A DNA stretch of 46,782 nucleotides. It comes from Thiogranum sp. GTDB taxonomy: Bacteria > Pseudomonadota > Gammaproteobacteria > DSM-19610. The DNA is taken from assembly GCA_030148915.1 (NCBI GenBank), contig JASBSN010000049.1, forward strand, positions 1 to 46,782. Reading direction: 5' to 3'. Of this stretch, positions 7,101 through 46,616 are shown piece by piece; position 1 is the stretch's first letter, and each line of letters starts with the position of its first letter. The notes under the pieces are model-generated. The model saw nothing but the letters and a program-made list of their open reading frames with translations, did not search any database and had not been told where the DNA came from. The position numbers and the translations under genes are program-made.

Positions 7101-10100
7101 GGCGCACGATGCAGAGCGTTAGCGTAAATAACAGAAGCGGCCAGACGTCCATAGACTTGCGCCTCGGCCTCCGTCGCGTTTAGAAGGCGCAGTACTTCCT
7201 GGCTGTGAAACCATGCCATTTCAAATGCCCGTTCGACGAAGTGCCGGTCACAATACTTCTCAAGCAGCAACATCGCCGCCTCGCGCGTGTCGGCAACACC
7301 GGATATTATCTGTACGCTCGCCGATGCGTCCGCAGCCAGGCTAATGCTACGGCGGATTGCCACGATGGGGTCGAGCACCGGACCTTCGCTGTTGGACAAA
7401 TGCTCCGCCTGCGAGGAGCGGTCACGGCGTTCCAGCGCCAGCGGGTTGACCGCCGATCGGCCCCGACCGATGAATTTTGCGCGATCAGTCTCGTAGGAAG
7501 CCTCACTGGTAACGGCGCCTGGCGCCGCAAACAGGTGAAACATCCACGGTACCTGCTCACCCGGGGTGCGCGGACGTCGGGTGCAGAGAATCGCCTGACG
7601 GTCCGAGAGAATTTCCGTCTGCACAAACAAATTACTGAACGCGCGATGCGACAAGTCGGCATTCATGGGCGCCAATACGACTTCGGCGTAACTTGTCACC
7701 TCGATGTGACGCAGGCGGGAAGACAGGTTGGTGAGCGTGACGCGGCGAATCTCGACGTCATCTTCCGGCGACACACTGATTTCTGTGTGAGACTCAATGG
7801 CTTGATCACGGCGCCGGTATTCAGCCCGTGCCTGGACGAAGATCGCCTCGTAGTGGTCGGCTTTGCGCAGCGTCGGCTGGTAGGCGGTTGACCAATAGCG
7901 CTCTGTGTCGCGATCACGCAAGTAAATGAATGTGCCCCAGCAGTCGGACGTAGCGTCCTCCCGCCAACGCGTGACGGCCAGCTCGCGCCAGCAGCTGTAA
8001 CCTCCGCCGGCGTGGGTCGCCATGGTATGGTACCTGCCGTTTGACAACAGGTGGACCTCGGGGACAGGGGTATTGGGGTCGGTGAATACGCGCATGATCG
8101 CGGCGCCTTCGGCGGCGGCCGGACGGGCCGCGGCGCTGACTTCAGCGGCATGCGGGTGCAAGGTGCCCACCTGTTTCGGCACGCGCTCCTGCAACAACAA
8201 CTGCGTCGCCCGCACCAGCGGGTCAGACATAAAGCGGCGCTGCATCGGCCGGTTCAGCAACACGTGATCAAGTGCCAGGAGCGTCATGCCCTGATGGTGC
8301 GCCATAAAGGCCCGCACAATGGCGTGATTTTTTCCCCGGGGTACCCGAGCCGGCGTGTAATCGACGGCCTCATAGAAACCATAGCCGCCGATAAAACCTT
8401 CCGCGCCAAGCCGCTGCATGTTACGACAGGCCTCCTGCGGCACCACCGTCAGCGCCAGAGCGCTGGCATAGGGCGCAATGACCAGGTCATCACCCAGTCC
8501 ACGCTTGAGGCCCAGTCCGGGCACGCCGAACGCCCGGTACTGATAGACCTGATGCATATCGGTGGCGTTATAACAGGATTCGGAAATACCCCAGGGCACG
8601 CCGCGTTGTCGGCCGTACTCAATCTGGCGCGCTACCGCCGCCTTACAGGTCTGCTCAAGCAAGGTATTCTGATAACCGGGCATAATGAGTCGCGGCATAA
8701 GGTACTCAAACATCGAACCGCTCCAGGAAATCAGGCTCACATTGCCGCCATGGCTGGTCAGCATACGGCCGAGTTCGAACCAGTGCCTCTGTGGCACCTG
8801 TCCCTGCGCAATGAGAAGGAAGCTTGCCAGGCGCGCCTCGGATGCGAGCAGATCGTAGCAAGACGGATCGCGGCGCCGCTCGCCGACGTCGTAACCAATA
8901 GCCAGCAGGTCGCGGGACGTATCGTAGAGAAACTCGTAGTCCATCGCCGCGAGGTCCCGACAACGGTTCACCAGATCATCGATGGTCCTCACTCGCGCCT
9001 GTGCAGCCTGGTAACGAGACCCCGGCGCGCCGACCGACAGTGGTGTATCGGTCACAACGCCGCGTACAGCCGCCAGTTCCGCCAGGGTGGGGATAGGGTC
9101 AGCGTTGTTAGTCTCCGCCAGCAGGAACTTCAGGTCTTCCTGGAGTGCGCGCGACTGCCGGTCGAAAGCCTGTGTCCAGTAGTACAGTTCGCCATCTATA
9201 TCAATATCCGTCGGCAGATACGCCGCCAGTCCTGCGCCCGCCTGATGGACGGTATCCAACAAGTCGGTAGCAACAGACAGGGACAGTGGTTGAGCGGTGC
9301 GTAAGCCTGCCTCCAGTGCATCGCGCAGAAACCTGACCTGCTTGTCCAAATCCGGTGCCGGGGATGCGGGGAGGTTTTCGCTCAATACCTCCAAGGTGTC
9401 TTTCAGCCCTTCAAAGGCATTTAGCGTCAGCACCGTTTGGTGCTCCAGTTCAATGAGCCCCGCCTCCAACGTAAGCAGGCTGCCGGACAGATTGCCGCTG
9501 TCCACCGACGAGACATATTGCGGGCGCAGGGGTTGCAGTGTTCGCGTGTCATACCAGTTATAAAAATGACCGCGGTAGCGCTCCAGCTTTTCCATCGTCG
9601 CCAGTGTGTTCTCGGTACGCTGCAGGAGCTCACCGGCACAAATATAACCCAAGTCATACGCCGCGAGATTCGCCAGCAACGACATACCGATGTTGGTCGG
9701 CGAGGTCCGGGAAGCGATAACCGCTGCGGGATACTCCTGGAAGTTGTCCGGTGGCAGCCAGTTCTCCAGTGGCCCGACGAAATCGGAAAAAAAACGCCAG
9801 GTTCTGCGGGCCGAAGCACGCAGGAACTGGCGTTGCTCGGCGCTCAGGTTCGGCGCGGGGGATACGAGCGGCAGGCTGATCCACCAACCGATGACCGGCG
9901 AAATAAACCAGAGCAGCAAAAGCGGAGCCCAGTAGAACCACTCCGCCGAGCGGGTATGCCACAGTATCAAGGTCAGTCCCGCGGCCATAGCCGGTGCAGC
10001 CCACATCTCTATGACGAAGTCTGTCAGCGTCTTGCGCGCATTGCGTCGCGCGTAGGAAGGTAAATGCCAGAGCAGCAATCCTCTGCGGGTAAACAACATC

Positions 10101-12985
10101 TGTACACCCGAACGCAGGATTGCGTCAACGCTGATCACCGCCTCATACGGCAAAAAGACCAGGCTTAGAAAAGCCACCATGATGGGACGACCGGCGGACT
10201 TTCCAGCCAGAATTAAATGTACCAGCCAAGCTCTCGCTTGCGGCTTGCGGACAAGCTCGATAGCGGCGCCCAGCAAGGTGGGCAGGAACACCACTGTTGC
10301 CACCAGCAGAGTCCAAAAACCCGCCGATCCAGGCGCGAACAACCAGCCACCGGCCAACAGCGCGAGCAGTGAAGGCGGTACAAGGCTGCGGCGCAGGTTG
10401 TCCACAATTTTCCACACGGACAAGGCCGTTAGTGGGTTAGCCGGCTGCCTAGCCTTCGCTCCGCGCCCGGCGGGTGGCCCCGGCACACGCGGCAACAACC
10501 AGCCCGCTAGTTGCCAGTCACCACGTATCCACCGGTGCCGACGGCTGACCTCTACAGCATAGCTGGTCGGATGCTCTTCGATCAGATCGACATCGGTCAC
10601 CAACGCGGAACGTGCATAGCCGCTTTCGACCAGATCGTGACTTAGAATGAGGTTTTCAGGAAAGCGGCCATCGACAGCCTGACGGAAAGCGTCCACGTCG
10701 TAGATGCCCTTGCCGATGAACGAACCCTCACCGAACATATCCTGGTAGACATCGGAAACCTGCCGGGTGTAGGGGTCGATACCTGACTCGCCGGCAAAAA
10801 GCTTAGCGAATCGAGACTGCCCAGCGCTGGTCAGACTGATCGAAGCGCGTGGCTGGAGTATGGCGTAACCTTCGACAATGCGCCCTTTGTCGGCATCGAA
10901 CAGCGGCCGATTGAGGGGATGGGCCATGTTACCTATCAACGTGCGCGCCGCATCGCGGGGCAACTGGGTGTCGGTATCCAGAGTGATGACATACTTGATC
11001 GAGGCAAGGATGGACACGTCGCCGACAATCTCCGAGAAAACACCTTTCCCCTCGCCGCGCAGCAGACTATTGAACTGCTCCAGCTTTCCGCGCTTGCGCT
11101 CATAGCCCATCCACACCCGTTCGTAAGGATTCCACTCCCGCGAGCGGTGAAACAGATAGAAGACACAGGGGCGGTCTGCACGATAGGTTTCGTTGAGCGC
11201 CTCGAGCGCTGCGCGGGCGTGGGCGAGCAGTGCCTTGTCTTGCGGTAGCGTGCGCTCGGTTGCGTCGTGGAAATCGGTCAGCAAGGCAAAAAACAGATTA
11301 GCGTCCCGATTACCGAGATAGCGAATTTCCAGGGCCTCAAGCAGGTCATCGATCGCCTCTACGCTACTGAGAAGCGTGGGAACAACCACCATGGTGCGGT
11401 GCTCCGATGGAATGCCGGTGGAGAAATCCAAGCGGGGCAAGGCGATCGGCGGCAGGGCCAGTGTGACCCAGAGATTTACCAGAGGCAGGGCCAGTGCCGA
11501 GACCCCCATCAGTCCGGTAACTGCAAAAAACCAGTACCGCCAGTCAGTCGGCTCAAAGCCCCCGAACGGCAAAAGTACCACCCCCGCGGCGGTCGCGGTT
11601 AGCAACAGGATCGGACTAAGGTAAAGAAACAGGCGCGAACCCCGGCTCACCCGGTTGGCCCGCTGACGCCATGACACACGGCAGCCTACAGTGCGCTCCA
11701 GTTCCTGCCGAGCGGGACCGATCAGGTAGTAGCCGACGTGCGCCTCGCGCTCACCGCTCCCCGCTTGCTGTGCCGCATCGCGGGCTAACGAAACGGCCGC
11801 GCGCGCCACGGCCAACTCTGTGTGTGCACTGTTGCCACACCCGCGAGCCATGTCTTCGATAACGTGCCGGTAACAGTCGCGGGTAGCGAAATCCTGCCCT
11901 GCGTACATGCCCGCCGGGTCTTCACGCAACGTCTGCTCGACGACACTGAGCGACTCGACGTAGTCTTTCCAGTTCATCGCGCCAATAAAGCGCAGGCTAC
12001 CGATACTGTTGGCGATTGAGAGCTGATTGGTCGCCGCTGTTCGACCGGCCGCCTCGGACAATTGCGTGGCGGTCACGCCTTGTTCGATCAGTTTTTGCTC
12101 GACCCAGGTCTGAACGAATGCCAGAGCGGGTCCCTGCGCTTGCAGCCTGCCATAAAACTCTTCCACAAAAGGCGCGGTCAGCGGTACATCGGCATGGGCG
12201 AACTCCGCGAGCAAGCGGATAAGTTGCTTCGGCTCTTTTTCGGCCGTTTGCAGCATACGGTCAGCCCAGTCGATGGCCGCATTGCGTTCCTCACGTCGAC
12301 GGGCGATACGTGAGCCGACCCGGCGCAGATTTTCCAGTAAGGCCAACTGCAACATGATCGGGAATGCCCACAACTCGCCCAACTTCAACGGCTCGGCGCT
12401 CTGGTAAGCAGAGACAAACTGGGTGGCGTTGTCGCAATCGATACGACCATCCATGTGGGAGATCAACTGCAGCGCCAAGTCATAGATGCGCGGGAAGCCC
12501 GCCGAGGGACCATCAGCCAGGCGTGGCAACTGGCGACTGTAGCCACGCGGCAAATGTCGCCGTGCCAAACCGATCTGCTGCTCGATCAGATAGAAATTAT
12601 CCAGCAGCCAAGCCTCGGCCGGTGCGACCGGCTGTCCGGGCGTGGCCGCTGCTGTGACGACGTCATAGGCGGCCAGTAGCACACGTGCATTGTCCGCCAG
12701 ACGCGGCAATAACCTGTCAGGCCCCGGCGACAGATCAAGGCTATGCTTCGCGGCCAGTTTTACGGCGTGGCGCTTCAGCTGCTCAAGACTCAACAACTCG
12801 GAGCGAAGCAATTCCGTATCCCGGTCGTGATGCGGCGCATTCCGTGTGCGGGCCAGAAATACAAAATCTTTGATAGCGATGAAAAATTCCTCGCGAAACC
12901 CCCCCAGCGCCGGAACAGCGCCGGCCCCTCGACCTTTATTGCCGTAGTCTCCGAAGCTTAGTCCCCCACAAGGACTTATCGCCAT
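4187..12985 (-). CDS. ndvB: Cyclic beta-1,2-glucan synthase (NdvB/Cgs family)
   Basis: A giant inner-membrane enzyme of 2932 residues, matching the usual 2800-2900. Domain order: an N-terminal soluble region; membrane segments near residue 445; a GT84 glycosyltransferase core (about 520-860) with TLDTDTQLP (near 664) and RRHRWIRGDWQ (near 818); further membrane segments (about 870-1060); a glucoamylase-like domain (about 1340-1570) with GISESCYN and AHHQGMTLLALDH; two GH94 N-terminal beta-sandwich repeats (about 1630-1900 and 2110-2390); and a GH94 phosphorylase domain with GYRDQLQDT and GSGDWNDGMN (near 2600). This is the architecture that initiates, elongates, trims and cyclises periplasmic beta-1,2-glucan from UDP-glucose. 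No strong ribosome site precedes the ATG, so the start could lie slightly downstream. No transporter gene (ndvA) is adjacent. The likely role is in osmotic balance and the envelope. Confidence 0.93.
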   Translation of the reverse strand: MAISPCGGLSFGDYGNKGRGAGAVPALGGFREEFFIAIKDFVFLARTRNAPHHDRDTELLRSELLSLEQLKRHAVKLAAKHSLDLSPGPDRLLPRLADNARVLLAAYDVVTAAATPGQPVAPAEAWLLDNFYLIEQQIGLARRHLPRGYSRQLPRLADGPSAGFPRIYDLALQLISHMDGRIDCDNATQFVSAYQSAEPLKLGELWAFPIMLQLALLENLRRVGSRIARRREERNAAIDWADRMLQTAEKEPKQLIRLLAEFAHADVPLTAPFVEEFYGRLQAQGPALAFVQTWVEQKLIEQGVTATQLSEAAGRTAATNQLSIANSIGSLRFIGAMNWKDYVESLSVVEQTLREDPAGMYAGQDFATRDCYRHVIEDMARGCGNSAHTELAVARAAVSLARDAAQQAGSGEREAHVGYYLIGPARQELERTVGCRVSWRQRANRVSRGSRLFLYLSPILLLTATAAGVVLLPFGGFEPTDWRYWFFAVTGLMGVSALALPLVNLWVTLALPPIALPRLDFSTGIPSEHRTMVVVPTLLSSVEAIDDLLEALEIRYLGNRDANLFFALLTDFHDATERTLPQDKALLAHARAALEALNETYRADRPCVFYLFHRSREWNPYERVWMGYERKRGKLEQFNSLLRGEGKGVFSEIVGDVSILASIKYVITLDTDTQLPRDAARTLIGNMAHPLNRPLFDADKGRIVEGYAILQPRASISLTSAGQSRFAKLFAGESGIDPYTRQVSDVYQDMFGEGSFIGKGIYDVDAFRQAVDGRFPENLILSHDLVESGYARSALVTDVDLIEEHPTSYAVEVSRRHRWIRGDWQLAGWLLPRVPGPPAGRGAKARQPANPLTALSVWKIVDNLRRSLVPPSLLALLAGGWLFAPGSAGFWTLLVATVVFLPTLLGAAIELVRKPQARAWLVHLILAGKSAGRPIMVAFLSLVFLPYEAVISVDAILRSGVQMLFTRRGLLLWHLPSYARRNARKTLTDFVIEMWAAPAMAAGLTLILWHTRSAEWFYWAPLLLLWFISPVIGWWISLPLVSPAPNLSAEQRQFLRASARRTWRFFSDFVGPLENWLPPDNFQEYPAAVIASRTSPTNIGMSLLANLAAYDLGYICAGELLQRTENTLATMEKLERYRGHFYNWYDTRTLQPLRPQYVSSVDSGNLSGSLLTLEAGLIELEHQTVLTLNAFEGLKDTLEVLSENLPASPAPDLDKQVRFLRDALEAGLRTAQPLSLSVATDLLDTVHQAGAGLAAYLPTDIDIDGELYYWTQAFDRQSRALQEDLKFLLAETNNADPIPTLAELAAVRGVVTDTPLSVGAPGSRYQAAQARVRTIDDLVNRCRDLAAMDYEFLYDTSRDLLAIGYDVGERRRDPSCYDLLASEARLASFLLIAQGQVPQRHWFELGRMLTSHGGNVSLISWSGSMFEYLMPRLIMPGYQNTLLEQTCKAAVARQIEYGRQRGVPWGISESCYNATDMHQVYQYRAFGVPGLGLKRGLGDDLVIAPYASALALTVVPQEACRNMQRLGAEGFIGGYGFYEAVDYTPARVPRGKNHAIVRAFMAHHQGMTLLALDHVLLNRPMQRRFMSDPLVRATQLLLQERVPKQVGTLHPHAAEVSAAARPAAAEGAAIMRVFTDPNTPVPEVHLLSNGRYHTMATHAGGGYSCWRELAVTRWREDATSDCWGTFIYLRDRDTERYWSTAYQPTLRKADHYEAIFVQARAEYRRRDQAIESHTEISVSPEDDVEIRRVTLTNLSSRLRHIEVTSYAEVVLAPMNADLSHRAFSNLFVQTEILSDRQAILCTRRPRTPGEQVPWMFHLFAAPGAVTSEASYETDRAKFIGRGRSAVNPLALERRDRSSQAEHLSNSEGPVLDPIVAIRRSISLAADASASVQIISGVADTREAAMLLLEKYCDRHFVERAFEMAWFHSQEVLRLLNATEAEAQVYGRLAASVIYANALHRAPPTVIARNQLGQPGLWSFAVSGDLPIVLIRIGDLNRIELVKQVLQAHAYWRMKGLRSDLVIINEDFSGYRAVLHDLIMGLINAGPEAHIIDKPGGVFVRRAEELSEEDRVLFQTVARVVLTASAETLAEQVQRRVRSERMPPRLVARQKPADDPIHPLPKRERIFSNGLGGFTPDGREYVVTLEPGQNTPAPWANVIASPHIGTVISERGSAYTWVENAHEFRLTTWQNDPLSDSGGEALYIRDEDTGVFWSPTPFPARGSSGYVCRHGFGYSVFEHYEAGISSELFTYVAMDAPVKFVVVKLRNHSAAPRRLSLTGYWELVLGEWRHTNLMHIVTEAELHSGALFVKNAYGHECANRIMFAQVSEPDRTLSGNRTEFIGRNGSLANPAAMHRENLSGRTGARLDPCAALQAQVTLAEGQEREIVFVIGAAQNTDEAQHLIRRFVGPAGARQALEAVWDHWNRTLDAVHVETPDPALDVLANGWLIYQTLSSRLWGRSGYYQSGGAYGYRDQLQDTMALIHTTPWLAREQLIRCAGRQFVQGDVQHWWHPPNGQGVRTHFSDDYLWLAYATCRYVSATGDTGVLDESVHFLEGRELYPEEEAYYDQPQRSTESATLYEHCVRAIKHGLRFGEHQLPLIGSGDWNDGMNLVGRDGKGESVWLAWFLYENLHLFSSLAESQGDGAFAEVCSAQAAQLRKNIEDHAWDGGWYRRAWFDDGTPLGSADNDEGKIDSISQSWAVISGAGDPARARSAMAALDEHLVHRDTGVIQLLAPPFDKSDLEPGYIKGYVPGVRENGGQYTHAAIWAAMAFARMGETERAWELFAMLNPVNHGSQPETIERYKVEPYVMCADIYAVPPHTSRGGWTWYTGAAGWMYRLTVETLLGVQLEVNRLLIAPRIPDHWDMYKIRYRYRETFYHITVRRVGESSERVISVTVDGVVTSNDALSGERQRQGVIPLVDDHGEHHVDVGLG

Positions 12986-31848: not shown

Positions 31849-32268
31849 TCAATTGAACAATTTTTTTACCGTACTGCGGCTTTGCAACAGATCGGCCAGC
31901 GAGTGCTGCTTTATTTCATTAATAAACATATCCTGTGCTCTGGAAAACACACAGCTCAGCTCACACGAAGCGCGCAGCGGACAGCGTGACTTATCACAGT
32001 CGATCAATGGCCTGATGCCTTCGAACTCCAGAAACAGCTGGCCAATATTGATCTCTTCCGGTGGCTTGTTAAGCTCCATACCGCCGCCCTTGCCGTGATA
32101 GGTCCTGATATAACTTAGACCGGAAAGACGGTGCACCACTTTGCGCAGATGTTCGTGCGAAATACCATAGTATGCGGCGATTTCCGCCATCGTGATACGA
32201 CGCTTGTTATTCACCGCGACATACATCAAAACTCTGTACGCGTAGTCGGTGTAGTGACTGATTTGCAT
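31849..32268 (-). CDS. nsrR: Rrf2-family regulator, NsrR type (nitric oxide sensor)
   Basis: A 139-residue winged-helix regulator. The start at ATG 32268 (MQISHYTDYAYRVLMYVA) aligns with the family; the longer open frame upstream is not NsrR-like. The three cysteines are Cys91, Cys96 and Cys102 (CDKSRCPLRASC), exactly the positions that hold the Fe-S cluster in characterised NsrR. A fourth Cys106 follows. The HTH includes AAYYGISHEHLRKVVHRLS, and HGKGGGMELN forms the wing. NO damage to the cluster would relieve repression of the nirK cluster, in which it is the fifth gene. Confidence 0.88.
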   Translation of the reverse strand: MQISHYTDYAYRVLMYVAVNNKRRITMAEIAAYYGISHEHLRKVVHRLSGLSYIRTYHGKGGGMELNKPPEEINIGQLFLEFEGIRPLIDCDKSRCPLRASCELSCVFSRAQDMFINEIKQHSLADLLQSRSTVKKLFN

Positions 32269-32374
32269 AGTAAAAGGGCTTCTTCGCGGCGCCGGGCAGT
32301 TGCATGCAAATATCCTCCATATCGACCGGCAAATCAACCGTCGCCCAGTACTTCACCGCGGCAAGCCTTCGCTA

Positions 32375-34605: not shown

Positions 34606-35541
34606 TTACCTTAGGATGAGATTCCCGTTTCGGCCTTTGTCCGGATCAGCGCCCTTATAGTTCATCAGCACCGTGATAGCGCCATTGAGCGCATGCTTCA
34701 TGCGGTGATCTACGATGGCGTTATTGGTAGCCCTGTCGGCCGGACTGACAATATCAAAGACCATTCCGTGGGCTGGCGGCACGTCAACGGTCTGCATGTC
34801 ATAGCGCACGTTTTTCGGATTGCCGTTATCCCATACCCTTTCCCATATCCCGGCAATAGGATGAAACGCGGCCGATTCATTAATGCTTGCATTGACAAAA
34901 TACAGTCTTACGCGCTCACCCGGCTCTGACTCGAGCGCTATACTGGCGTTGGAATCGTGAACCGGGTCATAGTGAAATAGTTTGCCGTTGATAAGAGAGC
35001 CTTCCCACCCTCTGCCCATAGTGATGTCTTTCGGTTTTGTACCTTCTTCGAACAGGTCCCCCTGGACGATGACGTACTCGCGATCAGGTTTCGGAAATTG
35101 CGCGCTGTAACCTTCGCGAGGATCCACAATAATCACGCCATACATACCTCTTGAGATATGTTCCGACATCGCCTCCGAACCGCAGTGATAAATAAACACG
35201 CCCGGCACTTTTGCCTTGAACTTGAACTTTTTTGTTTTTCCCGGCTTTATGGGGGCGAATTCATCCAGCACATCGACTTGCGCAGCGTGAAAATCCATAG
35301 AGTGGCTCTGGTGATTACTCTCGGCGTTATGCAGGGTGAAATCCACCACATCGCCTTGCTTGACGCGAATCAGCGGCCCCGGAATGGTGCCGCCGAATGT
35401 CCACATGGCGTGAGTGGTACCGGCATTGTCAATTTGCAACGGCAGCTCCTTGGCCGTCATTTCGACACTTACGGTTTCGGCGAGGGCGACATCGGTCAGG
35501 CCGACGCACAACAACAACAGCGAAATGGCAGGTCTCTTCAT
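34606..35541 (-). CDS. nirK: Copper-containing nitrite reductase, Nitrosomonas-type NirK
   Basis: A 311-residue periplasmic enzyme (signal peptide about 1-21) that reduces nitrite to NO. Copper ligands: HQSHSMDFHAAQVD (catalytic Asp and type-2 His), YHCGSEAMSEHISRGMYG (type-1 Cys, His, Met and the second type-2 His), FHPIAGIWERVWDNG (catalytic His) and VDHRMKHALNGA (third type-2 His). All key residues are present. The compact length matches the ammonia-oxidiser type. It leads a minus-strand cluster: nirK, dihaem cytochrome, monohaem cytochrome, multicopper oxidase, nsrR, dsrE. Ribosome site GGGAGA; an NsrR-type operator lies 18 bp upstream of the ATG. Confidence 0.93.
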   Translation of the reverse strand: MKRPAISLLLLCVGLTDVALAETVSVEMTAKELPLQIDNAGTTHAMWTFGGTIPGPLIRVKQGDVVDFTLHNAESNHQSHSMDFHAAQVDVLDEFAPIKPGKTKKFKFKAKVPGVFIYHCGSEAMSEHISRGMYGVIIVDPREGYSAQFPKPDREYVIVQGDLFEEGTKPKDITMGRGWEGSLINGKLFHYDPVHDSNASIALESEPGERVRLYFVNASINESAAFHPIAGIWERVWDNGNPKNVRYDMQTVDVPPAHGMVFDIVSPADRATNNAIVDHRMKHALNGAITVLMNYKGADPDKGRNGNLILR

Positions 35542-35558
35542 AATTATTCTCCCACTTT

Positions 35559-35581
35559 TAAATGTATTTCAATTACATGTT
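35559..35581 (-). promoter_or_regulatory. NsrR-type operator upstream of nirK
   Basis: TAAATGTATTT, one base (C), AATTACATGTT. The right arm read on the other strand is AACATGTAATT. Both arms match the 11-1-11 NsrR consensus arm (AAGATGYATTT) at most positions, centred on ATGTA. The position just upstream of the nirK ribosome site suits repression. The nsrR gene lies in the same cluster. Confidence 0.7.
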
Positions 35582-35644: not shown

Positions 35645-36823
35645 CTAGCGCACTGACCGGTAGCCCTGAGTACGGTTGCGTTTGCTCAACACCAGCTGCC
35701 ACAACTGCCCCTGCCGTGAGCGAAAAAAACCGGCGCAACTCATCAGATAGTACTTCCACATGCGGTAGAACCGACGATCATATTTTTGTGCCAATTTAGG
35801 CCAGGCTGCGTCAAAATTATCCCACCAGGCCATTAGGGTGCGTTCGTAGTCGGTGCCGAAATTATGCCAGTCTTCAATCAGAAAACAGTTCTCAACAGCG
35901 CCCGCTATCTGGCGTGCCGACGGGAGTTTCCCATTCGGGAAAATATACTTGTCGATCCATGGGTCCACGGTGTGTGAAGTGGCATAAATACCAATGGTAT
36001 GCAGTAAAAAAAGACCGTCATCTTTCATTAAACGCGCCGCAGTATCGAAATAGACGCGATAGTTTTTCGGTCCCACGTGTTCGAACATGCCGACAGAGAC
36101 CAGTTTGTCATACTTCCCCTGCAGCTCACGATAGTCCATTAGCTCGATATGCACTGGCAATCCGGCACACCGCTCCTGCGCAAACCATTGCTGCTCTCGG
36201 GAAACGGTTATACCGGTCACTTCAGCTTGATAATATTTTGCGGCGTGCCGAGCCAGACTGCCCCAGCCACAACCGATTTCCAGTAACCGTTCTCCCGGCT
36301 GCAAATCGAGCTTTTTGCAGATCATATCCAACTTGTCGTGTTGGGCTTGTTCTAGATTGTTTGCGTAACGCCAATAGCCGCAGGAGTAAGTCATATTCCT
36401 GCCCAGCATGGCCCGGAATACGTCATTGCCGGCATCGTAGTGATGCTCGCCCACCTGAAAAGCCCTCTGGCTCGACTGCAGGTTCAATACAGTCTGGCGG
36501 ACCACTTCGGCCAGCAAGCGGACTCGGGGCCGACCGGCCAATTTTTCGTCAATGTCAAAGCGCAGCAGGCGTGTAAACAGCTCATCCAATGCTTCGGCAT
36601 CCCATAAGCCATCCATATAGGTCTCACCGAAACCCAATGAGCCGTGTCTCAGAATGCGCTGGTAGACGATGGGATCGTAAACCTGTATATCCCAGGGTTT
36701 GCTGGCGTTGAAGCCCACCCCTGCGCGCTGCGCAAGTTTCTGCAGTATTTCGGGAGCCTCGATGCCGGAGTGATCGACCATGTCGCATCTGACATCGCAC
36801 GATCGGTTTTCGTCTCTCCGCAT
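35645..36823 (-). CDS. cfa: Cyclopropane-fatty-acyl-phospholipid synthase
   Basis: A 392-residue SAM-dependent methyltransferase that adds a methylene bridge to unsaturated membrane acyl chains. It has the family HHYDAGNDVFRAMLG segment (about residue 128), the SAM site LEIGCGWGSLARHAAKYY (about 182), the motif SVGMFEHVGPKNY, and FPNGKLPS. The first ~20 residues are not obviously conserved, so a slightly later start is possible. It appears monocistronic, downstream of an AT-rich intergenic region. Confidence 0.93.
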   Translation of the reverse strand: MRRDENRSCDVRCDMVDHSGIEAPEILQKLAQRAGVGFNASKPWDIQVYDPIVYQRILRHGSLGFGETYMDGLWDAEALDELFTRLLRFDIDEKLAGRPRVRLLAEVVRQTVLNLQSSQRAFQVGEHHYDAGNDVFRAMLGRNMTYSCGYWRYANNLEQAQHDKLDMICKKLDLQPGERLLEIGCGWGSLARHAAKYYQAEVTGITVSREQQWFAQERCAGLPVHIELMDYRELQGKYDKLVSVGMFEHVGPKNYRVYFDTAARLMKDDGLFLLHTIGIYATSHTVDPWIDKYIFPNGKLPSARQIAGAVENCFLIEDWHNFGTDYERTLMAWWDNFDAAWPKLAQKYDRRFYRMWKYYLMSCAGFFRSRQGQLWQLVLSKRNRTQGYRSVR

Positions 36824-37081
36824 AAATGAGCCCTTTCTTGATTTTTAGTAGCTTGTTGGCGGAGACGATATAATCACGGCTAGTTATTAACAAACAATAT
36901 TTATTGATCTTTTATATCTACAGATTCGATACAAGTAGCGGCGGCCTTGTGGTGGGGAAGGTGTTCTTACCACCCCGGGGTCCTCCGTTACGGAAGCCAC
37001 AACGCCATAGCAATGCAATCAAGTATTTAATATATTTGTTATAATGCCGATAATCGGCACCCAAGCCAGTTCTACCCGACA

Positions 37082-37109: not shown

Positions 37110-37754
37110 ATGCTACGCATTCGAGTCCTGATGAAGTTCACCGACGAACCGGTAAAACGCACCCCCGTCACCCTCTACCTGGACACCGATCCGCAGCATC
37201 CGATCGAGGGTGCCACCGACCGCGGAGGTGTCGCGACGTTTGATATCCCGCCTGCCAGCGGAAAAATCGTAGTGAACGGATCAACCCGGCATCACGGGAG
37301 GCTCGACGGCGACATTGCCATTGCCCTGTGGTCCCCGACCGACGCCGATAGTGTGGCCGAATACGGCGCCCCTGGGGGTGGCGAGAGCGGCAGCATCGCT
37401 TATCCCAGCATGCAGATCCGCACGCTTGAGGTGAACGGGAAATCGGTCGAAACCGACAGTGAAGGCTATTTGGTCAACCTGGATGACTGGTCGGAGGCGT
37501 TTGTACGCGCACAGGCGGACCACGAAAATCTGCCGCTCACCGACGAAACCTGGGAGGTGATCCGCTTCCTGCGAGACTTTTATGAAACCCATCAGATCCA
37601 GGCCAACGTCCGCGAAGTTATTAAGCATTTTCGCAAAATATGGGGGCCCGAGCGCGGCAGTAACCGGTATTTGCACACCATTTTCCCGCGCGGTGGGCCG
37701 CAGAAACAAGGCAATCGATTGGCGGGTTTGTTGCGTACTAAGGGCGAACACTAA
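37110..37754 (+). CDS. Cysteine-less DsrC/TusE-like protein with an N-terminal beta-type domain
   Basis: A 214-residue protein from ATG 37110 (an in-frame ATG at 37044 is less likely). Residues 1 to about 100 look like a small Ig/carboxypeptidase-regulatory-like beta domain (LRIRVLMKFTDEPVKRTPVTLYLD, then ATDRGGVATFDIP). Residues 106-214 are a full-length DsrC/TusE domain: EGYLVNLDDWSEAFV, LPLTDETWEVIRFLRDFY, REVIKHFRKIWGPERGS and YLHTIFPRGGPQKQ. DsrC normally ends KQACKIAGL...GCV with two redox cysteines; here the tail is KQGNRLAGLLRTKGEH, so both are replaced (Asn202, Glu213). It cannot form the DsrC trisulfide. A regulatory or binding role is inferred. A decayed second copy lies at 16523-16659. 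Confidence 0.85.
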   Translation: MLRIRVLMKFTDEPVKRTPVTLYLDTDPQHPIEGATDRGGVATFDIPPASGKIVVNGSTRHHGRLDGDIAIALWSPTDADSVAEYGAPGGGESGSIAYPSMQIRTLEVNGKSVETDSEGYLVNLDDWSEAFVRAQADHENLPLTDETWEVIRFLRDFYETHQIQANVREVIKHFRKIWGPERGSNRYLHTIFPRGGPQKQGNRLAGLLRTKGEH

Positions 37755-37781: not shown

Positions 37782-38228
37782 TTACAACCCAGTCTTGGCG
37801 CGGCCCAGTGCCCGTAACAAGGCCGGGCGGTTTACCACCAGATCAGCCAGTGTGTAGGTATCCAGAACCGCATAAAAAGCTTGCTCGGCTTTCTCGAACG
37901 CCCCACGCAACACACAAACCCGTTCTATACGGCAGTCCGAGGCGCCCTGAGTGAAACACTCCACCAGGGCGCTGCCGTCCTCCGACTTGCGCACCACCTC
38001 CCCGACGCGGACGCGTTCAGGATTGACGTTCAGCTGCACGCCGCCCCCTTTGCCCCGCGTTGTTACCACGTAACCCTCGGTGGCTAAAAACAAAATGACT
38101 TTCATCAGATGATTTCTCGAGATCTGATAGGCCTGCGCGATCTCACCGACCTGCGCCCGCCGCTCCGCGTGGGTACCGAGGTAAATCAGCACACGCAACG
38201 AATAATCGGTAAATGTAGTCAATCGCAT
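37782..38228 (-). CDS. nsrR: Second Rrf2-family regulator, NsrR type
   Basis: A 148-residue regulator beginning MRLTTFTDYSLRVLIYLG. The HTH has YQISRNHLMKVILFLATEGYV and the wing TRGKGGGVQL. Three cysteines lie at 91, 99 and 105 (ECFTQGASDCRIERVC), and the C-terminal helix reads LDTYTLADLV as in NsrR. The first gap is longer than in the copy at 31849. It is divergent from nnrS, an NO-response gene, and convergent with the DsrC-like gene (27 bp apart). Likely NO-responsive control of nnrS and its own gene. Confidence 0.88.
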   Translation of the reverse strand: MRLTTFTDYSLRVLIYLGTHAERRAQVGEIAQAYQISRNHLMKVILFLATEGYVVTTRGKGGGVQLNVNPERVRVGEVVRKSEDGSALVECFTQGASDCRIERVCVLRGAFEKAEQAFYAVLDTYTLADLVVNRPALLRALGRAKTGL

Positions 38229-38408: not shown

Positions 38409-39617
38409 ATGCCCATGATGAACATCGACACCGCCGGATCCAACCCGAATCGCCGCTTCGCCCTTTTTGCGCTGGGTTTCCGGCCCTTTTTCAGCCTCGC
38501 CGGACTCTTCGCGGTGCTAGGTATGCTGCTGTGGATGCTGATGTTTGGGTTCTCGCTGCAATTGCCGCTGAGCGGCCTGTTACCGACCATCTGGCATGCC
38601 CACGAAATGGTTTACGGTTACGCCATGGCGGTCATTGCGGGGTTTCTGCTGACGGCGGTCGGAAACTGGACCGGTATCCCCAGTTTTCAGGGCTGGAAGC
38701 TGTTTATCGTCGTGGCGTTTTGGCTCATCGCACGGGTGGCCTTTTTTCTTCCAGTGGAAGGCTCTTTATCGCTTTCGGCTGTGGCGGATGTTTTGTTTAT
38801 GCTGGGACTGATTATGGGTGTAAGCCTCCCGGTAATCCGCGCCAGGCAGTGGGCGCAACTGGGCATTATCTTTAAGTTGGTCTCGATGCTGCTGGCCAAC
38901 GGTCTGTTCTATGCCGGGGCGCTGGGTTATCTGAGTCACGGCATCTCTTGGGGGCTTTATACAGGGTTCTATCTCATTGTGGCGTTGGTCTTCATGATGG
39001 CTCGGCGAGTCTTGCCCTTTTTCATCGAACGGGGTGTGGACGAGCCCTTTTCGGCACGCAATCGACGCTGGATTGATATCGCCAGTCTGGTGCTGTTCCT
39101 CGTCTGGGCCAGCCTGGATATTTTCACGCAACAGCGGCTGCTGATCGGCTGGCTTTCTTTGGCTTTGTTGGTAGTACATGCCTGGCGCTTGTTTGACTGG
39201 CATACCGCAGGAATCTGGAAAAAACCGCTGTTGTGGTCGCTGTATCTGGCCTATGCGTTCCTGTCTGTCGGCTTTTTATTGAAGGCGCTGTCTGTTTGGC
39301 AGGGTGTTTCACCTTTTCTTGCCTTACACGCGTTCGCCGTCGGTGGTGTCGGGCTGATGACCATCGGCATGATGTCGCGCGTCGCCCTGGGCCATACCGG
39401 GCGAAATGTTTTCGAGCCGCCCGCGGTATTGGCGCCGGTGTTTGCGCTGATCGTTCTGGCGGCGATCGCACGGGTGGCGTTTCCGTTGCTGGATGCGGGA
39501 CACTACAAGCTCTGGATCACCCTTTCACAGGTACTGTGGATAACCGGGTTCGCCGCGTTCTCGGCGGTGTATATACCCCAGCTCATGCGGCCACGGGTTG
39601 ACGGGCAGCCCGGTTAA
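38409..39617 (+). CDS. nnrS: NnrS family membrane protein (nitric oxide response)
   Basis: A 402-residue protein with about 12 membrane helices. Family marks are LGFRPFFSLAGLFAVLGM at the start, WHAHEMVYGYAMAVIAGFLLTAVGNWTG (about residues 62-90), and near the end LHAFAVGGVGLMTIGMMSRVALGHTGR. Conserved histidines in these motifs fit the haem/copper binding reported for NnrS. It protects cells from NO stress, probably by limiting iron-NO complexes. It is divergent from the second nsrR. Confidence 0.93.
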   Translation: MPMMNIDTAGSNPNRRFALFALGFRPFFSLAGLFAVLGMLLWMLMFGFSLQLPLSGLLPTIWHAHEMVYGYAMAVIAGFLLTAVGNWTGIPSFQGWKLFIVVAFWLIARVAFFLPVEGSLSLSAVADVLFMLGLIMGVSLPVIRARQWAQLGIIFKLVSMLLANGLFYAGALGYLSHGISWGLYTGFYLIVALVFMMARRVLPFFIERGVDEPFSARNRRWIDIASLVLFLVWASLDIFTQQRLLIGWLSLALLVVHAWRLFDWHTAGIWKKPLLWSLYLAYAFLSVGFLLKALSVWQGVSPFLALHAFAVGGVGLMTIGMMSRVALGHTGRNVFEPPAVLAPVFALIVLAAIARVAFPLLDAGHYKLWITLSQVLWITGFAAFSAVYIPQLMRPRVDGQPG

Positions 39618-42167: not shown

Positions 42168-43241
42168 TCAGAAACGAATATGTGTCGAGTGATTGAGCGT
42201 ATACCTCGCGCCCGACCAGTTATCAATATGGAAGCGGGTGAACGGCAGATCGGTCATGGCGAAAAATCGTTCCCAGCCGATGCGGTCGATCCATTCACCC
42301 AGGCGCTCCCACTCCATGGCATCGTCCTTGTAGCACTGGAGAATATTCTTCACCACGGCCGTGGCCTCCGGCCAGCGCGGTGGGTTATTCGGTAAGCCGG
42401 CGGCCACCAGCTTCTGCATACTGGGTTTGGAGCGCGCGTTGGAGTTCTTGCCGCCAACCCAGATCGCCAGTTTTGAATGCTCGGGGTCGTTGATCTGCAT
42501 CGGCGGACAGGGCGGATAACAGGCACCGCAGCAGATGCATTTCTTTTCATCCACCTCCAGCGACGGCCGGCCGTTGACCAGGGCCGGGCGGATCGCGGCA
42601 ACCGGACAGCGCGCCACGACCGAGGGTCGTTCGCAGATATTGGCCACCATATCGTGGTTGATTTTAGGCGGCTTGGTGTGCTGAATATTGATAGAAATAT
42701 CGGCCTGCCCACCGCAATTAATCTGACAGCACGAGGTGGATAAGCGCACCCGGTTGGGCATTTGTTCGTGGATAAATTCCTCATGCAGGGCATCCATCAT
42801 GGACTTGGCCACGCCGGAGGCGTCGGTCGCCGGGATATCACAATGCAGGAACCCCTGGGTATGGGCGATCATGGACATGGAATTGCCCGTGCCGCCGACC
42901 GGGAAGCCCTCTTCGCCCAACTTCTCGATCAGGGCCGCGACCCGGTCGCCGTCCCCCAGCATAAACTCGATGTTGCTGCGTATCGTGAACCGTACGTAGC
43001 CGTCGCCGTACTCGTCGGCAATATGACAGAGCTTGCGAATGGTGTCGGTATCCATTTGTCGTTGGGTACCGGCGCGCACCGTCCAGATTTCATCGCCCTG
43101 AACGGACACATGGTGCAGGACACCCGGGCGCGGGCGTTCATGCCAGTCCCACTGGCCATAGTTCCTGCGCATCAGCGGATGCATGTAGGGGAACGGGTCC
43201 GGCACCCCGCTTTCGATCGCCTGACGTACGGTATTTTGCAT
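42168..43241 (-). CDS. dsrB: Dissimilatory sulfite reductase beta subunit
   Basis: A subunit of 357 residues starting at ATG 43241, which overlaps the dsrA stop (TGATG) and has AAGGAG seven bases upstream. The sirohaem/4Fe-4S region includes STSCCQINCGGQADIS, and the ferredoxin domain has KKCICCGACYPPCPPMQIND. It partners with DsrA to convert sulfide or DsrC-bound sulfur to sulfite in sulfur oxidisers (reverse Dsr), or sulfite to sulfide in reducers. The oxidative direction is inferred from the window's other genes. dsrE, dsrF and dsrH do not follow; the next gene is the convergent ptsP. Confidence 0.94.
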   Translation of the reverse strand: MQNTVRQAIESGVPDPFPYMHPLMRRNYGQWDWHERPRPGVLHHVSVQGDEIWTVRAGTQRQMDTDTIRKLCHIADEYGDGYVRFTIRSNIEFMLGDGDRVAALIEKLGEEGFPVGGTGNSMSMIAHTQGFLHCDIPATDASGVAKSMMDALHEEFIHEQMPNRVRLSTSCCQINCGGQADISINIQHTKPPKINHDMVANICERPSVVARCPVAAIRPALVNGRPSLEVDEKKCICCGACYPPCPPMQINDPEHSKLAIWVGGKNSNARSKPSMQKLVAAGLPNNPPRWPEATAVVKNILQCYKDDAMEWERLGEWIDRIGWERFFAMTDLPFTRFHIDNWSGARYTLNHSTHIRF

Positions 43242-44479
43242 CACATGACTCCTTCTTTTTCGGCGTGACGCTCACGCCACTTGTCGGCCTCTTCTTCCCA
43301 GGTGTCCATGCGCACGAACGAATTGCTTCGCGGTTGTGCCACCATGGCGGGTTCCACGTCGAGCCCCACACCTTCGAGAAAGTTTGCCAGCCCGATACGT
43401 TCGATCATTTCGCCACAACGTTCGTGTTCCAGGCCGTTCTCGGCCCAAAAATCGATAATGGTCTCCGCGAGCTCCACCAGACTCTCGTAATCTTCAGCGG
43501 ATTGCAGTTTTTTGAAGGGCACTATTACAGTTCCGAACAGATCGCCGATCTTGAGGGTACGTTTACCGCCAACAAGAATCGTCACACCGCGGTCTTTGCC
43601 CGGCGAAAGCGCTTTGGTCATCACGTTGATGCAGTGCATGCAGCGCACGCAATTGCGGTTGTCGATATCAATGCTGTCATCGTCTTTGAGCGTCATGCAG
43701 CGGGTCGGGCAACGGGTGATGACATTGTCAATAACGTATTGCCTGCCCTTTTTCTCGACAAACGCCTTGACCTCCTGCGGTTTGACCTGGATTTCGTCAC
43801 GCCAGGTACCGATAACCGCCATGTCGGAGCGCTGCACGGAGTTCATGCAATCGTTGGGACAACCGGAGAATTTGAACTTGAACTTGTAGGGTAGCGCCGG
43901 ACGGTGCAGGTCGTCGGTAAAGGAATTCATCACCGTGCGATGCGCTACCGCCTCATTAAAACAGGAATGCTCGCAACGCGCCGCGCCGACACACGACATC
44001 GAGGTACGCACCGATGGGCCTGCACCGCCCATATCGAAGCCGAGCTCGTTGATGGCATCGAAGGCATCCTGGACTTTCTCAGAGGTGCAACCCTGAAACA
44101 TCATGTCACCGCTCTGACCGTGCAGGGCGAGCAGACCGGAACCGTGTTCGTCCCACACATCACAAAACTTGCGCAAAATATCGGTATCGTAGTGCATACC
44201 CGGCGGCGGCATAATGCGCAGTGTATGGAACTCCTTCGAGGCCGGGAACTTGTCGGCCACCTCGGAGAAACGCGGTATGACCCCGCCGCCGTATCCCATC
44301 ACGGACACGGTGCCACCTTTCCAGTAACCCTTTTTGTTGGCGTAGGAGTATTCAAGCTGCCCGAGCAGATCGGACATCATTTCATTTTTCTCCGCCAGCC
44401 GTTTAAACCCGGTGACGAAACTGGGCCATGGACCACTTTCCAGCTGATCCAGGTTGGGTGTGTCATGCTTCTTTTTCAT
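43241..44479 (-). CDS. dsrA: Dissimilatory sulfite reductase alpha subunit
   Basis: A 412-residue protein, choosing ATG 44479 (MKKKHDTPNLDQLESGPWPSF) with GGAGG eight bases upstream; this matches usual DsrA length. Cluster-binding cysteines: SCVGAARCEHSC and GCPNDCMNS (sirohaem-linked 4Fe-4S), then CPTRCMTL and CVRCMHCINVM in the ferredoxin domain. It is translationally coupled to dsrB. The upstream region is strongly AT-rich with a dyad. Only dsrAB are present here; dsrEFHCMKLJOPN must be elsewhere or absent. Confidence 0.95.
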   Translation of the reverse strand: MKKKHDTPNLDQLESGPWPSFVTGFKRLAEKNEMMSDLLGQLEYSYANKKGYWKGGTVSVMGYGGGVIPRFSEVADKFPASKEFHTLRIMPPPGMHYDTDILRKFCDVWDEHGSGLLALHGQSGDMMFQGCTSEKVQDAFDAINELGFDMGGAGPSVRTSMSCVGAARCEHSCFNEAVAHRTVMNSFTDDLHRPALPYKFKFKFSGCPNDCMNSVQRSDMAVIGTWRDEIQVKPQEVKAFVEKKGRQYVIDNVITRCPTRCMTLKDDDSIDIDNRNCVRCMHCINVMTKALSPGKDRGVTILVGGKRTLKIGDLFGTVIVPFKKLQSAEDYESLVELAETIIDFWAENGLEHERCGEMIERIGLANFLEGVGLDVEPAMVAQPRSNSFVRMDTWEEEADKWRERHAEKEGVM

Positions 44480-44646
44480 GCGTAAAGCCTCCAACTGAAT
44501 AAAATATAAGCAGAAGTCCAAACACCCTGGGCACAACGCTCACAGCGGGTGGGCCTCCCCGGTTTACCAACTACTCCGTCTTTACCCTGATTCCCATAAG
44601 GTCTTAGGCATAATTTGAATATAAGCCAACAATAATTAAATACAAA

Positions 44647-44671
44647 CGATATTTATTGCTAGTTAATATCG
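44647..44671. promoter_or_regulatory. AT-rich dyad upstream of dsrAB
   Basis: CGATATT, eleven bases, AATATCG: perfect seven-base arms about 170 bp upstream of the dsrA ATG, inside an AT-rich stretch (about 44590-44695) that contrasts with the GC-rich genes around it. Candidate operator/promoter region for dsrAB. The regulator is unknown. Confidence 0.4.
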
Positions 44672-45537: not shown

Positions 45538-45741
45538 AATGCTATCTCCTTAAATCTGTGCGTCAGTGCGTCGCTATGCCGATCACAATGACGATCTCAA
45601 GACAGAGAACCAGCATGACCCAGGGGTGTTGTCGAAAAAAATGTTTCACCCTCATGGCCCGCGTCTCGCTGGTTTGTTTACTTATTATTGAGCCTAGACA
45701 CGGAATTGATATTTGTAAAACGATGAATTTTTGCGGATAAC

Positions 45742-45756
45742 ATCGATATCGTCGAT
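45742..45756. promoter_or_regulatory. Short dyad before the LysR gene
   Basis: ATCGA, five bases, TCGAT, ending 14 bp before the ATG at 45771, between divergent genes. The position suits autoregulation by the LysR protein. It shows a T-N11-A-like spacing only loosely. Confidence 0.3.
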
Positions 45757-45770
45757 ACTATACGCGGCCT

Positions 45771-46616
45771 ATGGACACAGAACTCGCACGTACCTTCCTC
45801 GTTGTCGTGGCTGCCGGTAATTTCAGCACGGCGGCGGAGCACCTCCACGTCACGCAATCAACGGTAAGCGCACGGATTCGTTCCCTGGAACAATTGCTCG
45901 GATGCGCGCTGTTCGTGCGCAACAAGGCGGGGACCAGCCTGACACCGGCAGGCCGCCAGTTTCAGAAACACGCGACTAACCTGGTGCGTACCGTAGAGGC
46001 AGTACGACAGACAGTCGGTATCCAATCAGGCTTCCGCGCCACCCTCACCCTAGGGGGTCGATTCGGTTTGTGGGAACAGTTGCTGCTGCGCTGGTTAACC
46101 TGGATGCGACAACATCAAGCCGATGTCTCGGTGCGGGCTGAAATCGGCCTGGATGCAGAGCTGATGCAAAGGCTCATTGAAGGCAGTATTGATATCGGCG
46201 TCATCTACACACCACAAAGCCGCCCGGGCATGACGGTGGAACACTTGCTGGATGAACAACTCGTGCTGGTCGCCACGCAGCCCGATGCCACCGGACCGGG
46301 CGATCCTGACTACGTGTTTGTGGATTGGGGGCCTGAATTCTTCCACAAACACAGCGTGCACTTCCCCGATCGGGGCAACACACCACTGGTGGCCGGCATC
46401 GGCTGGCTCGGCATGCAGCATATTCTTGCCGAGGGTGGCTCAGGGTATTTTCCGTTGCGCCTGGTCCGTGAACAGCTCAATAGCGGCCATCTCACACTGA
46501 TAGAGCAGGCACCTAAATTCGCCTTACCCGCTTACGTCGTATATCCCACGGAGGCAGAGCCCACGGTGATTGGGCCGGCCGTCGCAGGCTTGCGTCAGGT
46601 CGCAACTGAGCCATAA
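45771..46616 (+). CDS. LysR-family transcriptional regulator
   Basis: A 281-residue regulator. The N-terminal winged HTH (about residues 1-60) reads ELARTFLVVVAAGNFSTAAEHLHVTQSTVSARIRSLEQLLG. The effector domain has two lobes from about residue 90 and includes GSIDIGVIYTP, the typical hinge region. It is divergent from the ABM-like/DUF488 pair, the usual arrangement for a LysR protein and its target. The effector is unknown. Confidence 0.93.
   Translation: MDTELARTFLVVVAAGNFSTAAEHLHVTQSTVSARIRSLEQLLGCALFVRNKAGTSLTPAGRQFQKHATNLVRTVEAVRQTVGIQSGFRATLTLGGRFGLWEQLLLRWLTWMRQHQADVSVRAEIGLDAELMQRLIEGSIDIGVIYTPQSRPGMTVEHLLDEQLVLVATQPDATGPGDPDYVFVDWGPEFFHKHSVHFPDRGNTPLVAGIGWLGMQHILAEGGSGYFPLRLVREQLNSGHLTLIEQAPKFALPAYVVYPTEAEPTVIGPAVAGLRQVATEP

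Follow-up and report, generated by a model that had tools for sequence, protein, structure and literature searches.

The two-domain DsrC gene and its surroundings

The window, which is the whole stretch of 46,782 nucleotides analysed here, contains a gene for a DsrC-like protein that lies among genes for regulators, NO- and nitrite-related proteins and a second copy of dsrAB (Table 1). We use KGEH-DsrC as a working name for this protein and its relatives, after the KGEH end of the C-terminal arm. An alternative in-frame ATG at position 37044 would lengthen the protein by 22 amino acids; the starts of homologues match position 37110.

Table 1. Genes, protein domains and predicted regulatory sites discussed in the text, with positions in the window.
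Feature	Position	Strand	Basis
NirK-like two-domain copper oxidase	34606..35541	-	TIGR02376, 183.6 bits, below cut-off of 296
NsrR-like box before NirK-like gene	35559..35581	-	4 of 23 positions off consensus
CMAS (cyclopropane synthase-like), divergent from DsrC gene	35645..36823	-	Pfam
Composite LysR-type operator (predicted), CMAS/DsrC intergenic region, overlapping TATCTACAGATTCGATA at 36915-36931	36890..36919	-	2 mismatches
NsrR-like box ATCAAGTATTTAATATATTTGTT, 70-92 nt before start codon	37018..37040	+	7 of 23 positions off E. coli consensus; 0.005 of shuffles
Two-domain Cys-free DsrC protein, 214 aa (two-domain KGEH-DsrC)	37110..37754	+	ORF, Pfam, NCBIfam, AlphaFold2
Transthyretin/carboxypeptidase-regulatory-like beta-sandwich, residues 1-73, followed by low-confidence linker (residues 74-102)	37110..37328 (residues 1-73)	+	AlphaFold2, fold match
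DsrC/TusE-fold domain, residues 103-214	37416..37751	+	Pfam, TIGR03342, alignment, fold match
C-terminal arm GGPQKQGNRLAGLLRTKGEH, Asn202 and Glu213 at DsrC Cys positions	37692..37751	+	Alignments
Rrf2 regulator, NsrR/RirA type, convergent with DsrC gene	37782..38228	-	Pfam, NCBIfam
NnrS	38409..39617	+	Pfam, 348 bits
dsrB, second dsrAB copy	42168..43244	-	NCBIfam
dsrA, second dsrAB copy, 68% identical to main DsrA	43241..44479	-	NCBIfam
Composite LysR-type operator (predicted) CGAT-N10-AATAAATATCGTTTGT upstream of second dsrA	44642..44671	-	0 mismatches
LysR-type palindrome CATCGATATCGTCGATA before LysR gene	45741..45757	+	
LysR regulator; LysR proteins encoded next to two-domain genes at other loci are 46-53% identical	45771..46616	+	

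An earlier note, made from the letters of the DNA, had read residues 106-214 as a full-length DsrC domain in which both arm cysteines are replaced, behind an N-terminal domain of Ig or carboxypeptidase-regulatory type, and had suggested predicting the structure of both domains. This description was borne out, and the fold type suggested for the N-terminal domain proved a good guess. Residues 107-209 match the Pfam family DsrC (PF04358; E=6e-32, 110.7 bits against a cut-off of 24.9) and the protein scores 97.4 bits with TIGR03342 (TusE/DsrC/DsvC), above the curated cut-off of 53.5. In the AlphaFold2 model, built with 54 homologues (mean pLDDT 89.4, pTM 0.84), residues 102-214 adopt the DsrC fold, with a Z of 16.2 over 112 residues aligned to A. 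vinosum DsrC (1yx3). Confidence is low for the last three residues, in agreement with the flexible end of the DsrC arm. The long insertion of 7-8 residues that precedes the arm of DsrC (PMC4164917) is present and aligns without gaps to the DsrC of A. vinosum. In the same alignment Asn202 takes the place of Cys100 and Glu213 that of the penultimate Cys111, with the spacing of 11 kept, and the whole translation does not contain a single cysteine. The penultimate redox cysteine is described as strictly conserved across DsrC sequences (PMC3397948); the KGEH protein lacks it as well as the second arm cysteine found in dsrAB organisms, and sulfur carriage via arm cysteines is impossible for it. The genome encodes nine genes with the DsrC fold.

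The N-terminal part of the model (residues 1-81) resembles transthyretin, 5-hydroxyisourate (HIU) hydrolase and the carboxypeptidase-regulatory and CnaB folds with Z values of 8-9, an arrangement that is common. Unlike HIU hydrolase, residues 1-104 do not contain the YRGS tetrapeptide. No family for this part was found in Pfam or NCBIfam, or in PHROGs when the domain alone was the query.

The gene described by the earlier note as a tail-to-tail NsrR gene is indeed a convergent Rrf2-type gene, but its product stays below the cut-offs of both candidate models (119.6 bits against 182 for NsrR, 121.3 bits against 193 for RirA). It has three cysteines in the region in which NsrR-type proteins bind an Fe-S cluster. 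Another Rrf2-type regulator gene (31849-32337) adjoins copper oxidase and cytochrome c genes. Further upstream, a very long ORF (4187-12985; 2932 aa) appears by eye to be cyclic beta-glucan synthase-like.

The dsrAB genes that the same note had placed 5 kb away are real, but they are a second copy (42168-44479), which the other dsr operon genes do not accompany; its DsrA scores 575 bits, and that of the main copy, located in another part of the genome, 658 bits. Comparable second copies occur in Thiohalobacter and in four other genomes (G010, G019, G124, G400), some of them beside genes for CBS, LysR or a divergent DsrC. A DsrC variant with one arm cysteine (KQACK..RAWSTG) was seen at two loci (L119, L005); in Thiohalobacter about 2 kb separate it from the second dsrAB. 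Since members of the Chromatiaceae combine the two-domain gene with only one dsrAB, it does not need the second copy; a dependence on the latter was rejected because most carriers lack a second copy.

Conservation and phylogeny of KGEH-DsrC

From genome contigs 71 full-length two-domain homologues were recovered, chiefly from Chromatiales and relatives; many of the carrier genomes are MAGs. Among cultured strains, Thiocapsa roseopersicina DSM 217 and Allochromatium humboldtianum DSM 21881 encode the two-domain form. Two gammaproteobacterial-type two-domain genes came from a single assembly labelled Desulfobulbaceae (L024, L025), possibly by contamination. Since 38 columns are invariant across 54 homologues with 52-80% identity, the two-domain protein is not a product of chance. 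Across 59 dereplicated homologues the arm GGPQKQGNRLAGLLRTKGEH hardly varies. Asn202 is invariant in the 54 homologues, a count partly biased where the search pattern spanned this residue: one pattern spanned GGPQKQGN, and the KGEH end was part of no pattern. An independent search with the N-terminal domain alone recovered the same arm in every protein whose contig reaches the arm. Single-domain members, which lack the N-terminal domain, have this arm in common with the two-domain form.

In a tree of 81 DsrC-family domains, which has few columns and does not resolve the inner branching, two-domain and single-domain KGEH proteins form one clade (support 100/99). It is joined (96/87) to a second Cys-free clade (100/98) that ends in RKGGY and comprises loci L004, L115, L116, L122, L123 and L129. 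RKGGY proteins resemble KGEH-DsrC in being Cys-free, in occurring in dsrAB genomes and in their neighbouring position in the tree; they differ from the two-domain form in clade, in the sequence of the arm, in the absence of the N-terminal domain and in their location near the dsr operon. Of six genomes examined, five have the RKGGY gene no more than about 5 kb from the main dsrA (L004, L115, L122, L123, L129). The RKGGY proteins possibly correspond to what has been named RspA. Among open-licence papers, where absence proves little, we found no description of the Cys-free KGEH subfamily.

Occurrence in dsrAB genomes

The distribution of the family was determined in an even set of 369 genomes of the class and a second set of 398 genomes of the phylum, with carriers counted by an exact DNA pattern of the arm, which undercounts them. 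The pattern was present in 21 and dsrA in 119 of the class genomes. Nearly all arm genomes (20/21) contained dsrA, against 99 of the 348 others (Fisher p 7e-10, uncorrected for relatedness). The one arm genome without dsrA, G254, is an assembly of 81% completeness, and its congener G114 has both genes. The phylum set added two arm genomes, each with a completeness rating of 100% and with dsrA, which brings the carriers with dsrA to 22 of 23. Genomes with narG show the same pattern, since the arm occurs in 9/28 of those with dsrA and in 0/34 of those without (p 3e-4). By our reading of the matches, DsrA or DsrB was also found in 46 of the 50 genomes reached through homologues.

The complete genome G662 encodes a KGEH gene inside a dsr cluster, with dsrK and DsrL-like and DsrJ-like genes, and close to a gene for uroporphyrinogen-III methyltransferase, an enzyme of the siroheme branch. 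A large molybdoenzyme encoded nearby was considered as a nitrate reductase and rejected, since its best scores are to PhsA/DMSO-reductase types.

The earlier note had proposed that the protein binds or regulates DsrAB and had suggested looking for co-occurrence of the architecture with dsrAB. As evidence against it, the note had named a predicted structure without the DsrC fold, or homologues in lineages without any dsr/tus genes. Neither turned up: the fold is that of DsrC, and the sampled lineages without dsr lack the protein. The co-occurrence, the G662 cluster and a predicted operator in common with the nearby dsrAB (see below) fit such a partner. What that reading missed is that the family is associated chiefly with the metabolism of nitrate, nitrite and NO; it did mention the NsrR neighbour but made no use of it.

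Nitrate, nitrite and NO gene neighbourhood

The unbiased samples contain 17 single-domain members, of which 14 are encoded immediately downstream of nitrate reductase genes and in the same orientation, eight of them after narGHJI and six after nirB/nasA-like genes, with gaps of about 6 to several hundred nt; narG and narI were confirmed by NCBIfam and NirB domains by Pfam. At one of the narGHJI loci (G402) a small cytochrome-like gene intervenes, and the nirB-linked molybdoenzyme of L166 lies below the curated cut-offs of nitrate reductase models, for which reason it is named only nasA-like. The other three single-domain genes lie at a contig edge by a kinase gene of the kind found in nas-type clusters, in the dsr cluster of G662, and in G083 with no such neighbours. 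Within dsrA genomes narG is more frequent where the arm is present (9/20) than where it is not (19/99; p 0.02). The genome of the window has no narG, and a NirB match is missing in many Chromatiaceae members.

At 58 dereplicated two-domain loci, the 107 genes at positions ±1 include LysR (18), CBS (9), NnrS (4), HPP (4) and Rrf2 (3), and another four HPP genes lie at ±2; in a set of 79 control genes at a distance, none of these five families was among the 25 commonest families listed. A role of an HPP protein in the transport of nitrite has been reported for cyanobacteria and chloroplasts (PMC7438415, citing Maeda 2014). As dsrAB-containing sulfur oxidizers are nearly the sole hosts of a family whose gene neighbours usually serve N-oxide metabolism, KGEH-DsrC probably couples both metabolisms.

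Predicted LysR and NsrR sites

Regions upstream of 70 two-domain genes were scored with the 23-nt E. coli NsrR consensus and a shuffle test. The five loci that score best by shuffle, among them that of the window, are exactly five at which an NsrR-type gene adjoins the two-domain gene; at a sixth locus of this kind, L171, the box has 6 mismatches. NsrR-like boxes were rejected as a general trait of two-domain genes, since they stand out only beside an adjacent regulator. The box before the DsrC gene of the window is weak (7/23 off), and that of the NirK-like gene is closer to the consensus.

A palindrome ATCG-N7-CGAT, which fits the T-N11-A form typical of LysR sites, is found upstream of the two-domain gene at 23 of the 27 loci that have a divergent LysR gene and at 11 of 43 others, against an expected background of 0.03 per 300 nt. 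This palindrome forms part of a longer, composite element, CGAT-N10-AATAAATNTCGTTTGT. At up to three mismatches this element has two matches in the window genome, and both fall in the window (44642-44671 and 36890-36919). The reversed pattern matches the genome once at the same threshold, so single weak hits are not significant, and shuffles of the window lead to an expectation of 0.01. The two-domain DsrC gene and the second dsrAB of the window thus have a predicted operator in common, although its copy at 36890-36919 is oriented toward the CMAS gene and not the DsrC gene. Composite operators precede the second dsrA in three genomes, namely that of the window, G019 and, more weakly, Thiohalobacter, and further copies stand before HPP or CBS operons and, in Thiocapsa, before a sigma-54-type regulator. 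Upstream of the main dsrA of six relatives the LysR palindrome was not found. In Thiohalobacter (L192) the element also precedes a CMAS homologue with 70% identity, and the CMAS gene seems to belong to one predicted LysR regulon with these genes in two genera. Taken with the NsrR-like boxes, these sites predict that two-domain KGEH-DsrC may be under the control of NsrR- and LysR-type regulators.

Proposed role of KGEH-DsrC

Among the main processes in sulfidic waters is the oxidation of sulfur by reverse-acting DsrAB coupled to nitrate reduction; nitrite and NO should be able to react with the DsrAB siroheme. We know of no protein that directly connects the two pathways. We tentatively propose, at somewhat less than even odds, that KGEH-DsrC is a sulfur-incompetent DsrC linked to NO and nitrate which, by docking on DsrAB, shields this siroheme enzyme or slows it down. 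Docking of the DsrC domain, on the second DsrAB encoded nearby as well, is suggested by the features that it has kept from DsrC, namely the fold, the insertion and the length of the arm. The amount of the two-domain protein would rise in response to NO, sensed by the NsrR-type regulator, or to a signal that LysR perceives, and the Cys-free arm of the protein would enter the DsrAB channel in place of the arm of DsrC. The terminal thiol of DsrC is replaced by a carboxylate in KGEH-DsrC. Once docked, the arm may keep nitrite and NO away from the siroheme, and docking would brake sulfur oxidation while N-oxides are processed. The transthyretin-like domain might supply a second contact or a ligand site, which is a guess. 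Put in its boldest form, that a Cys-free DsrC made with nitrate reductases and controlled by NO and LysR plugs the DsrAB channel and so sets sulfur oxidation against N-oxide reduction, the proposal is a little more speculative still. Where the single-domain gene adjoins a NirB-type siroheme nitrite reductase, as it does in several carriers, NirB could be an alternative partner.

That the true partner is a nitrogen enzyme throughout, with KGEH-DsrC as an accessory or regulatory protein of nitrate reductase or NirB and dsrAB as mere host background, would account for its position as the last gene after narGHJI or nirB/nasA-like genes and for the enrichment of the arm with narG in dsrA genomes. 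We regard this as unlikely, because two unrelated kinds of nitrate reductase precede the gene and the arm is absent from all 34 narG genomes without dsrA, while the window genome has no narG and many Chromatiaceae members have no NirB match. Somewhat less credible is a positive subunit that enables DsrAB, above all the second copy, to reduce nitrite or sulfite fully, as might follow from an arm that cannot form a persulfide. The operator and the CBS/LysR neighbours that the second dsrAB has in common with the two-domain gene, and the frequent presence beside the latter of HPP, of the nitrite-transporter family, fit such a subunit; yet most carriers have a single dsrAB, and members in Nar/Nas operons would have to act likewise with the main DsrAB, an enzyme that works in the oxidative direction.

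A signal protein for sulfur or N-oxide status, acting as a sensor or in connection with transcription and with the transthyretin-like domain as ligand sensor, would be consistent with a small Cys-free protein often encoded beside LysR, Rrf2 or CBS genes. The protein has no DNA-binding domain, its single-domain relatives lie in enzyme operons without adjacent regulators, and the linkage to dsrA would go unexplained, so that we consider this explanation very doubtful. The loss of both functional cysteines might also be taken as decay of a functionless DsrC copy. We rejected this on conservation, and its probability is negligible given the near-invariant arm, the conserved neighbours and the predicted operators.

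If the docking proposal is correct, KGEH-DsrC would be a protein that joins sulfur oxidation directly to N-oxide reduction, and the two-domain form a specialised transthyretin-like fusion that is co-regulated with a second sulfite reductase. The family also provides candidate functions for some of the 6-11 DsrC-like genes in such genomes. Since the family follows nitrate reductases and yet is nearly confined to dsrAB genomes, the link between sulfur and nitrogen can be tested in cultured strains.

Comparison with known DsrC-family proteins

KGEH-DsrC resembles the DsrC of A. vinosum in fold (43% identity at the Z given above), in the long insertion before the arm and in the length and spacing of the arm. 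The two-domain form differs from it in the replacement of both cysteines, in the extra N-terminal domain and in an insertion of one Gly residue before the arm, and it is encoded with N-oxide genes whereas DsrC belongs to the dsr operon. TusE has the DsrC fold in common with KGEH-DsrC, but it retains the terminal cysteine and lacks the insertion. DsrC variants encoded by phages also miss functional arm residues and are thought to have a modified role; in their case one cysteine and the insertion of 7-8 residues are missing (PMC4164917), while KGEH-DsrC lacks both cysteines and keeps the insertion. A further architecture, a tandem DsrC-DsrC fusion of 271-279 aa, was found at three loci (L111, L112, L132) in Thiohalobacter and another genome.
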